Of a stretch of DNA of 64,000 nucleotides, positions 32,077 through 33,827 are shown in pieces (positions within the stretch are counted from its first letter, which is position 1; every line of letters starts with the position of its first letter). The stretch is from Gluconobacter sp. Dm-62 (GTDB taxonomy: Bacteria > Pseudomonadota > Alphaproteobacteria > Acetobacterales > Acetobacteraceae). A program made the position numbers and the translations under genes. The notes under the pieces are model-generated. The model saw only the letters and a list, made by a program, of their open reading frames with translations, made no database searches and was not told the origin of the DNA. The DNA is taken from contig NZ_JAERLY010000004.1 in NCBI RefSeq assembly GCF_018256155.1, forward strand, positions 124,001 to 188,000, in the 5' to 3' direction.

Positions 32077-33648
32077 TCAGGACAGCGCTTCGGGCTCCGT
32101 CCGCTCACGCTTCGTCAACAGCTTGTTCAGCGCGTGAATATACGCACGAACAGCGGACACAACCGTATCGGCATCGGCGCCCTGCCCGTCCACGAGTTTG
32201 CCGTTTTCCTGCAGGCGCACCGTCGTGCGCGCCTGCGCGTCCGTGCCTTCGGTGACATTCGCCACCGAGAACAGCGCGAGTTCGGCCGTGTGCGGGAACG
32301 CTTCGCCAATAGCCCGGAACGCTGCATCAACGGGGCCGTTTCCGCTGACTTCTGCATACTGGATGGCACCGTCCACGCTGATTTCAAGCTTGGCGTGGGA
32401 TTTCTGCTTCGTGCCGGATGCCAGTTCCAGCGAAATCAGATGAACACGCTCGTGATCGCGGCTCTCGTCATCGACGAGTGCACGGATATCGTCGTCGAAC
32501 ACAACCTTCTTGCTGTCGGCCAGATCCTTGAAACGCGCGAAAGCTGCGTTCAGGGCCTCATCTTCCAGCGGCGGATAACCGAGCTGCGCCAGCTTGTCAC
32601 GGAACGCTGCGCGGCCTGAGTGCTTGCCCATGACCAGCGAGGTCTTGTTCCAGCCCACGCTCTCCGGCGTCATGATTTCGTAAGTCGCAGCGTTTTTCAG
32701 GATACCGTCCTGGTGGATGCCACTTTCATGCGCGAATGCATTGCGGCCGACGATCGCCTTGTTCGGCTGAACGTCGAAGCCCGTGATCGTCGCGAGCATG
32801 CGCGACATGCCCAGCAGCTTCGTCGTCTCGATACCGGTTGTCTTGCCGTACTGGTCATGACGGGTGCGCAGGGCCATGACGATTTCTTCAAGCGCCGCAT
32901 TGCCAGCACGCTCGCCGATACCGTTGATGGTGCACTCGATCTGACGCGCGCCACCTTCGACGGAAGCGAGCGTGTTGGCGACGCCGAGCCCCAGATCATT
33001 ATGGTTATGGGCGGAGAAAATCACCTGATCCGCACCCGGCACGCGCTCGCGCAGCATGGTGAAGATGGCGCGCATTTCTTCCGGCGTGGCGAAACCGACC
33101 GTGTCGGGGATGTTGATCGTGTTGGCGCCATTGCGGATCGCCATTTCCACGCAGCGGCACAGGAAGTCCGGATCGGTACGGGAGCCGTCCTCGGCCGACC
33201 ATTCGACGTCATCCGTGAACTGACGGGCCTTCTGGTTGCCCGACGCAATGATTTCCAGAACCGTTTCCGGCTCCATCCGCAGCTTGTACTTCATGTGCAG
33301 CGGCGATGTGGAAATGAAGTTGTGAATGCGCGGACGCTCGGCCTTTTTCAGCGCTTCGCCACAGGATTCGATGTCGCGCTTGCCACCGCTGCGGGCCAGA
33401 CCGCAGATCACCGATCCGCGGACATCTTCGGCAATGCGCCGGACACTCTCGAAATCGCCTTCTGAGGCAACGGGAAAACCGGCCTCGATCACGTCCACAC
33501 CCAGATTGCTCAACGCATGGGCCATGCGGAGCTTCTCTTCGATGTTCATCGAAAAGCCGGGGGACTGTTCGCCGTCGCGCAGCGTGGTGTCGAAGATAAT
33601 GACGCGGTCGTCGGCGATGGTGCCGAAGGACGGATGGTGGAAAGTCAT
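32077..33648 (-). CDS. leuA: 2-isopropylmalate synthase
   Basis: First committed enzyme of leucine biosynthesis: condenses acetyl-CoA with 2-ketoisovalerate. 523 residues. The DRE-TIM metallolyase signature FDTTLRDGEQSPG is near residue 20, the metal-binding SAHNHNDLGLGVANTL is in the barrel, and the C-terminal LeuA dimer/regulatory domain (about 400-510) for leucine feedback is complete. The gene is monocistronic; leuBCD are not nearby. It is preceded by a leucine-rich leader peptide and competing hairpins (33669-33780), so expression is probably leucine-responsive. Confidence 0.96.
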   Translation of the reverse strand: MTFHHPSFGTIADDRVIIFDTTLRDGEQSPGFSMNIEEKLRMAHALSNLGVDVIEAGFPVASEGDFESVRRIAEDVRGSVICGLARSGGKRDIESCGEALKKAERPRIHNFISTSPLHMKYKLRMEPETVLEIIASGNQKARQFTDDVEWSAEDGSRTDPDFLCRCVEMAIRNGANTINIPDTVGFATPEEMRAIFTMLRERVPGADQVIFSAHNHNDLGLGVANTLASVEGGARQIECTINGIGERAGNAALEEIVMALRTRHDQYGKTTGIETTKLLGMSRMLATITGFDVQPNKAIVGRNAFAHESGIHQDGILKNAATYEIMTPESVGWNKTSLVMGKHSGRAAFRDKLAQLGYPPLEDEALNAAFARFKDLADSKKVVFDDDIRALVDDESRDHERVHLISLELASGTKQKSHAKLEISVDGAIQYAEVSGNGPVDAAFRAIGEAFPHTAELALFSVANVTEGTDAQARTTVRLQENGKLVDGQGADADTVVSAVRAYIHALNKLLTKRERTEPEALS

Positions 33649-33668
33649 GATTGCGATCGTCTCGTCTG

Positions 33669-33742
33669 GTTCAGGATGGTTTTCGGTCTGTTATCCCCTG
33701 AACGCAACGGAGCGCTGTCCGCCTTGGAAAGGCGTTCAGGGG
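33669..33742 (-). promoter_or_regulatory. competing RNA hairpins in the leuA leader
   Basis: On the leuA transcript, CCCCUGAACGC (33742-33732, overlapping the leader stop codon) is an exact 11-nt complement of GCGUUCAGGGG (33705-33695). The second strand can instead pair through GUUCAGG with CCUGAAC (33675-33669), which lies 20 nt before the leuA start. The two helices exclude each other. No T-run follows either, so control may act on translation or through Rho. Confidence 0.6.
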
Positions 33743-33780
33743 CCGATAAGTCGAAGCGAGAGGATCGAAAGATACGTCAT
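33736..33780 (-). CDS. leuL: leucine-rich leader peptide of leuA
   Basis: A 14-codon frame reading MTYLSILSLRLIGP, stop TGA, located 87 nt before leuA. Four of 14 codons are Leu and two are Ile. No Shine-Dalgarno sequence precedes it. A TTGCGC-N17-CATTTA promoter ends eight nt upstream, so transcription would begin at or within about three nt of the ATG; the peptide is likely translated from a leaderless mRNA, as reported for some alphaproteobacterial trp leaders. The stop codon lies within the first strand of the competing hairpins. Function as an attenuator is inferred from composition, position and RNA pairing. Confidence 0.6.
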   Translation of the reverse strand: MTYLSILSLRLIGP

Positions 33781-33788
33781 GGGTGGGT

Positions 33789-33827
33789 TAAATGACCGAT
33801 TCTTGCGTCATGCGCAACCCGCATGAC
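33789..33827 (-). promoter_or_regulatory. leu leader promoter with overlapping palindrome
   Basis: Minus-strand -35 TTGCGC (33817-33812), 17-bp spacer, -10 CATTTA (33794-33789). A perfect 8-bp inverted repeat GTCATGCG-N5-CGCATGAC (33807-33827) covers the -35, which is where a repressor dimer would block RNA polymerase. The binding protein is unknown. Confidence 0.5.

Follow-up and report, generated by a model that had tools for sequence, protein, structure and literature searches.

In the leu operon attenuator of Escherichia coli and Salmonella (leuL; Leu_leader in Rfam), a terminator and an antiterminator act on transcription. In the translational attenuators of the erm and cat genes, an antibiotic is sensed and a ribosome stalled on the leader frees a ribosome-binding site (RBS) that is otherwise masked. 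For alphaproteobacteria, the 2004 abstract of Vitreschak and colleagues reportedly names ilvIH, not leuA.

The LEU element that precedes leuA in actinobacteria is described, in the available passages of Seliverstov et al. (2005; PMC1262725), as comprising a leader that contains Leu codons and a base stem in which Leu codons pair with the Shine-Dalgarno (SD) box. Its mechanism was left open in those passages, and its authors, given the mutant data, judged control of the classical leader-peptide type to be unlikely (PMC1262725). Excerpts of two further papers present leuL1 of Streptomyces, a leuA leader without a typical terminator (PMC8079986), and the leuA leader of C. glutamicum, which contains four consecutive Leu codons (PMC4046766). 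In the available passages of Corbino et al. (2005; PMC1273637), an ilvB leader peptide is mentioned for alphaproteobacteria, and the term leuA is absent from these passages. In our search of the open literature, whose coverage mostly leaves subscription papers aside, no alphaproteobacterial leuA leader was described.

The leuA leader frame and the hairpin P2

The window, by which we mean the whole stretch of 64,000 nucleotides of Gluconobacter sp. Dm-62 DNA that was analysed, carries the following features upstream of and including leuA.

33736 to 33780, minus strand: leader peptide frame MTYLSILSLRLIGP and stop, 14 codons, as read in the window sequence
33771-33769, 33762-33760, 33756-33754 and 33750-33748, minus strand: the four leader Leu codons CTT, CTC, CTT and CTT
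33732 to 33742, minus strand: P2 5' arm CCCCTGAACGC, which holds the leader stop TGA (33738-33736); from fold and covariation
33695 to 33705, minus strand: P2 3' arm GCGTTCAGGGG, with no T-run after it; from fold and covariation
32077 to 33648, minus strand: leuA, 2-isopropylmalate synthase, downstream of the leader (Pfam HMGL-like and LeuA_dimer)

An earlier note, made from the sequence alone, had described, upstream of leuA, a frame of 14 codons of which four encode Leu, and had placed its stop codon inside the first strand of an exact 11-bp helix, and both descriptions are borne out by the window sequence. The frame runs from 33780 to 33736 on the minus strand (ATG ACG TAT CTT TCG ATC CTC TCG CTT CGA CTT ATC GGC CCC TGA), and P2 is an exact 11-bp complement (33742-33732 with 33705-33695) that is seen in both computed folds. 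The longest perfect inverted repeat among 500 dinucleotide-keeping shuffles of 33780-33649 was 10, versus 11 in P2, and the leader as a whole folds modestly better than its shuffles (z -1.83 and -1.25). Leucine is encoded in the window's leader by CTT and CTC only; CTG makes up 107 of the 177 Leu codons in four neighbourhood ORFs, leuA included. The leader Arg codon (33753-33751) is CGA, found 3 times among 183 Arg codons in four neighbourhood ORFs, and this rare codon may contribute an extra ribosome pause.

The closest named leuA loci are those of Gluconobacter, with LeuA up to 99% identical. Conservation in relatives, on which the earlier reading had been made to depend, is seen for the leader end together with the P2 5' arm (CGACT-N6-CCCCTGA or a close variant), which is present in 77 of 80 named Acetobacteraceae leuA loci. 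Letters are missing within this motif in L057, the locus L068, counted as lacking it, has the motif minus one C, and no motif match was found within the roughly 320 bases before leuA in L102 and L111, which are AT-rich Acetobacter assemblies from ruminant abomasum. P2 was also present in all of 15 further Acetobacteraceae loci, picked among the matches listed. Loci of Gluconobacter, Neokomagataea and Saccharibacter possess a 14-codon ATG frame whose residues differ and whose common end is L-x-L-R-L-x-x-P-stop, and in many genomes of the class a leader ending in the pattern ...L-[R/L]-L-x-x-P-stop stands, with P2, before leuA.

Covariance models of the leader end plus P2 (R1) and of 87 class-wide sequences (R2), run with stricter filters at the cost of weak matches, matched 96 and 127 of 387 genomes of the class, respectively, the latter in 95 of its 264 genera; the window's genome holds one R2 match. 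A draw at the level of the phylum gave a match in 103 of 397 genomes, with the listed matches all belonging to the same class or to closer relatives, and says nothing on absence from other classes, 274 no-match genomes being unlisted. LeuA is encoded just downstream of the R1 matches at 30 of 30 loci (the window's own included) and at 61 of 65, and the four of these 65 first-round loci without a LeuA match are L198, L200, L202 and L206. Among the held-out R2 loci, 55 of 60 had a LeuA match by tblastn; two of the other five (L293 and L294) head a cupin-leuA pair, and three (L237, L257 and L263) look like false matches and have weak scores. In the cupin-leuA pair, seen in two genomes of one family, a 118-aa Cupin_2 gene (Pfam; L293, 6054-6410; L294, 6099-6455, minus) lies between the leader element and leuA.

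Comparisons were made on two sets of loci. The first drew on 173 of 189 loci, 16 having been skipped for lack of a motif, anchor, start or hairpin; L162 was removed because the hairpin finder took the wrong hairpin, and removal of similar loci reduced 172 to 89, of which 87 were kept in the model alignment with two long-loop loci omitted. The second, held-out set began as 60 loci hand-picked from class and phylum matches unused for the models, not all matches having been fetched. It lost 5 loci without a tblastn LeuA match and 6 without a start codon, leaving 49, and then 43 after redundancy removal. The 89 and the 43 together are the 132 non-redundant loci referred to below.

P2 is strongly covarying. 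Pairing is found in 95.6% of P2 cells of the 87-sequence alignment, and 41 cells still pair after a change on both sides, where shuffles give 7.4 +/- 5.4; shifting one arm by a single column lowers pairing to 55-62%. Used as a positive control, the P2 duplex compared between own and cross-species arms gave z of -9.8, -11.8 and -16.9, the last for all 132 loci, and arm pairs such as CCCCTAGGCG/CGCTTAGGGG, CCTCTGAGCG/CGCTCAGAGG and CCCTTAGGCG/CGCCTAAGGG differ in letters between loci. In 112 of the 132 loci the corresponding position of P2 is occupied by a stop codon (TGA in 96, TAG in 12, TAA in 4), the others having TGG (18) or another codon (2). The loci with TGG in place of the stop include ten of the first 89 (L207-L209, L211-L213, L215-L217 and L220), all Acetobacteraceae picked by hand; their leader ends in ...PWA and a stop two codons later, and this stop is therefore still within the P2 hairpin. 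Over the 132 loci, Leu occurs 4.39 times per 12 codons in the leader frame versus 0.43 and 1.54 in the other two frames, and it is found at codon -6, counted back from the stop, in 123 loci and at codon -4 in all 132, the latter partly owing to the way in which loci were found.

A promoter-like sequence was seen by eye upstream of the frame.

33789 to 33817, minus strand: weak promoter-like pair TTGCGC (33817-33812), 17 nt, CATTTA (33794-33789)

This pair, which the consensus promoter scan did not pick up, ends 8 nt before the leader ATG and would yield a nearly leaderless leader transcript. Among relatives, TANNNT lies 4-9 nt before an in-frame ATG in 23 of 113, at least two of these (L054 and L281) being internal ATGs, versus 5.7% at random positions; the window lacks TANNNT. 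The leaders may, judging by such sequences, be leaderless transcripts. In L074 the promoter-like pair reads TTGCAA-N16-TATGGT-7-ATG.

Pairing of leader codons with the leuA ribosome-binding region

The features that concern the second helix, P1, are these.

33757 to 33766, minus strand: P1 5' strand GATCCTCTCG, codons 6-8 including Leu7, the anti-Shine-Dalgarno strand; from pairing and covariation
33655 to 33664, minus strand: P1 3' strand CGAGACGATC, the leuA ribosome-binding region, -16 to -7 from the start; from fold and covariation
33747 to 33753, minus strand: leader segment CGACTTA between P1 and P2, conserved among the relatives compared

P1 was absent from the description in the earlier note. 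Nine of its 10 positions are paired (33766-33757 with 33664-33655), and the helix is present in the minimum-energy fold of the leader. Taken singly, the window's P1 is within chance, 259 of 2000 shuffles being equal or better, and support for it therefore rests on cross-species comparison. For this purpose a duplex was computed between the 26 nt before P2 and the locus's own RBS stretch, and its energy was set, by permutation, against that obtained with the RBS stretches of all other loci. The P1 3' strand is in none of the search models; the start of leuA was assigned by SD score, which may have given a wrong codon in some loci.

Over the 132 loci, with the RBS stretch taken as -40..-1, own pairs gave -16.76 versus -13.05 kcal/mol across species (z -14.6, 0 of 20000 permutations), and with the stretch -22..-1 the z was -11.0. 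The first 89 loci by themselves (-22..-1) gave -13.19 own versus -10.19 kcal/mol cross (z -10.5, 0 of 20000). In the 43 held-out loci the signal recurs with z -5.3 for -40..-1 (0 of 20000) and is weaker in the tight window -22..-1 (z -3.5, 3 of 20000). Controls in the first 89 loci gave z of -1.1 for leuA +3..+25, -1.8 for the reversed RBS and -2.1 for both the upstream leader and the post-P2 stretch, and the stretch -44..-22 gave -5.1 against the leader; controls ranged from -1.7 to -2.1 in the held-out loci and from -2.1 to -3.4 over all 132. Base composition accounts for some of the P1 signal. That composition explains it entirely was rejected, as the controls with reversed RBS, reversed leader, leuA +3..+25 and upstream leader are far weaker, though nonzero.

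The details of the pairing point the same way. Perfect complementary runs of at least 8 occur in 27 of 132 own pairs versus 2.4% of cross pairs, and in sliding windows the signal follows the antidiagonal, as a nested helix requires. In the 51 loci with a perfect run of at least 7 (30-nt leader window), the RBS-side strand is centred at -14, and 78% overlap -20..-4. The letters of P1 are wholly replaced between taxa with pairing kept, as in GCCUCACC/GGUGAGGC, UCGUCUUA/UAAGACGA and CUUCGGCUGC/GCAGCCGAAG. Within the Gluconobacter group, 20 of 23 rows have 9 of 9 pairs, with one compensated pair in L049; three Neokomagataea rows have 4 to 5 of 9 in the Gluconobacter register and pair in a shifted one.

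Next to P1, the counterpart of CGACTTA in several relatives pairs with a TAAGTC that precedes the leuA SD. The letters CTTA within it (window 33750-33747) are mostly kept while the codon that starts with their A changes in meaning (I, S, T, R, M), a near-invariance that, like that of CCCC, is partly built in, the model used to find loci containing both. CTTA pairs with TAAG in some loci.

What a ribosome on the leader would do to this pairing was modelled with a 31-nt unpaired footprint, as the energy to open leuA -18..+3 and with no shuffled control. Averaged over the 132 loci, opening the RBS costs 9.3 kcal/mol in free RNA and 7.9 when the ribosome is at the stop; for A-site positions from codon -11 to codon -4 the cost is 6.5 to 6.9, and from codon -10 to codon -6 it is 6.5-6.7. 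For the window's own leuA the cost is 8.4 kcal/mol in free RNA and 5.5 to 5.9 for ribosomes placed from codon -13 to codon -1, a modelled gain of about 3 kcal/mol; a ribosome at the stop brings no gain (8.55), and one at codon -14, the start, gives 11.1. A drop of more than 0.5 below free RNA is seen in 87 to 91 of the 132 loci for ribosomes placed from codon -11 to codon -4, and in 77 for a ribosome placed at the stop. When these positions are compared within a locus, codon -6 has a lower value than the stop by more than 0.5 in 69 loci and a higher one in 22. The model accordingly predicts that a ribosome which waits within the leader opens the leuA RBS, and opens it more than one at the stop. 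Ribosomes at non-Leu leader codons open the RBS in the model too, and specificity must therefore come from where ribosomes wait.

Comparison and modelling together point to a leader strand that would mask the leuA RBS and would itself be covered by a stalled ribosome, and we put at about 0.73 the probability that the element is a ribosome-mediated translational attenuator of leuA, with its sensor codons lying in the anti-Shine-Dalgarno strand. In the proposed mechanism the P1 5' strand, that is, the stretch of leader Leu codons, would pair with the leuA RBS on the P1 3' strand, and P2, with the stop codon in its 5' arm, would fold the intervening RNA and bring the two strands of P1 together. 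With leucyl-tRNA in ample supply, the ribosome would complete the leader and depart, P2 and P1 would close, and the leuA RBS would be masked; with leucine short, the ribosome would wait at the Leu codons on the P1 5' strand, P1 would be blocked, and leuA would be translated. We infer the response to leucine, the direction of control, and translation rather than transcription as the step controlled.

Rho, the third strand and terminators as rival explanations

The earlier note had also pointed to a missing U-tract terminator. There is indeed no T-run after P2 in the window, and a terminator scan found no terminator-like site there; what the note took to be the unusual part of the wiring is, however, the rule of the family, a T-run of at least 5 within 12 nt after P2 occurring in 6 of the 132 loci and no such run in the other 126. 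An intrinsic terminator was rejected on these grounds, both as a feature of the window and as a family rule. The same absence favours Rho-dependent transcription attenuation, in which the untranslated stretch after the leader, from P2 to leuA, would load Rho unless a stalled ribosome or open translation of leuA prevents it. The 46 nt in question hold 14 C and 8 G, and precedents given in the available passages of PMC1262725 are tna and, as a proposal, the mycobacterial cys leaders. Such a scheme does not require P1, yet P1 covaries strongly with the RBS, and we regard Rho-dependent attenuation as unlikely; Rho polarity could act jointly with a translational switch. Of the two outputs that the earlier note had offered, translation initiation or Rho access, the former is the likely one.

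A further strand was central to the wiring first proposed for this leader.

33669 to 33675, minus strand: CCTGAAC, the third strand, with which the P2 3' arm may pair instead; conservation limited to a group of relatives

In that wiring, strand 2 of P2 would choose between strand 1 and this third strand near leuA, and the choice would be the switch. The complement itself is there as described: all 7 nt of 33675-33669, 20 nt before leuA, can pair with a portion of the second strand, and CCTGA is invariant in 23 of 23 aligned Gluconobacter and Neokomagataea rows. L048 and L049 keep CCTGAAC despite an alignment gap at that place, and L043-L047 read CCTGACC, by which 2 of the 7 pairs of the 2:3 helix are lost. 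Compared class-wide, the strands of P2 covary and the pairing with the third strand does not: as a general switch it gives z 0.03 over the 132 loci and, with the opposite sign, +2.2 in the 43 held-out loci, and in the first 89 the 2:3 helix gives -1.1 with the spacer and -1.7 with the RBS. The sole candidate examined for a mutually exclusive antiterminator helix is thus without covariation in these 132 loci. The 2:3 helix is also nested within P1, off the SD, and therefore competes with P2, not with the masking of the RBS. The choice between strands 1 and 3 is in our judgement very improbable as the switch, and a role of the 2:3 helix confined to the Gluconobacter and Neokomagataea group is possible; the general idea of a ribosome-mediated switch without an intrinsic terminator is supported, with a translational attenuator built on P1 as its probable form.

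A shade less probable again is a classical transcription attenuator in which P2 is a terminator that works without a clear U-tract. T8-T9 follows P2 in L108 (Commensalibacter) and L168, and T5-T6 lies within 12 nt in five others of the 132 loci, but 126 loci are without a T-run of 5 and the covariation of P1 would be left unexplained. Least probable of all is an RNA that binds a protein or a small molecule, with the frame incidental, a possibility that Seliverstov et al. raised for the LEU element of actinobacteria: near-invariant CTTA, with a second codon that changes meaning (I, S, T, R, M, P), would suit it, but Leu is enriched in one frame only, the 14-codon frame is kept in three genera, and the stop codon keeps its place in P2 in 112 of 132 loci.

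The two loci with the longest T-runs merit a separate word. In L108 (uncultured Commensalibacter, 1829-1903) and the related L168, the leader stop is TAG, not TGA, and P2 is followed by T8-T9 and therefore resembles an intrinsic terminator there, which suggests that the leader scaffold is able to change its output.

Relation to described leaders and meaning for leucine synthesis

Against Rfam release 15 the window gave no gathering-level match, the only hit being a chance-level U6 match inside leuA (E 8.2), and 12 relatives gave no known leader family and one chance-level snoRNA match; membership in a known Rfam leader family was rejected for the window and these relatives. With leuL of E. coli and Salmonella the element shares a Leu-containing leader peptide before leuA and the ribosome as sensor, and differs in having no U-tract and, as we infer, the RBS as target. 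As in erm and cat, a stalled leader ribosome would unmask an RBS, whereas in leuA the sensor codons lie within the anti-SD strand and shortage of an amino acid would be the signal. The trpL leader of S. meliloti (rnTrpL), in the available passages of PMC10117765, is likewise an alphaproteobacterial 14-codon leader of an amino-acid gene with a leaderless frame, but is part of an attenuator that acts on transcription and from which a small RNA is released.

To the actinobacterial LEU element, as far as the available passages describe it, the likeness is threefold: a leader frame before leuA with a run of Leu codons, a base stem that joins Leu codons to the leuA SD, to which P1 corresponds, and no terminator in either (PMC1262725; for Streptomyces leuL1, PMC8079986). 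Inside the stem the LEU element contains a pseudoknot and an alternative hairpin, whereas the alphaproteobacterial element contains a hairpin with the leader stop in its 5' arm (PMC1262725), and the peptide ends differ, being MRFGLLLLSCRGEGL and stop in the Streptomyces excerpt (PMC8079986) versus ...LRLxxP and stop here. Judged by its published description, the LEU element is one that the alphaproteobacterial element would work like.

The element is, apparently, a widespread and undescribed version of a known kind of leader switch. A broader reading, which we offer tentatively and at somewhat less than even odds, is that this undescribed alphaproteobacterial leucine switch uses its sensor codons as the anti-SD strand of leuA, CUC and CUU being near-complements of AAGGAG; this intrinsic pre-adaptation may have given rise to the actinobacterial LEU device independently, and in Commensalibacter the scaffold would have become an intrinsic terminator, which would be a natural example of passage from translational to transcriptional control. 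Two questions become testable: does the actinobacterial LEU element, for which the available passages of the 2005 paper give no accepted mechanism, operate as a ribosome switch wired in this way, and does the resemblance of Leu codons to an anti-SD sequence favour the repeated origin of such a switch? Surveys based on terminators would miss a switch of this kind, which also went without a match in Rfam release 15. If the reading of the element as a translational attenuator is right, a large share of the Alphaproteobacteria, industrially used acetic acid bacteria among them, would set their leucine synthesis by a one-helix translational switch.
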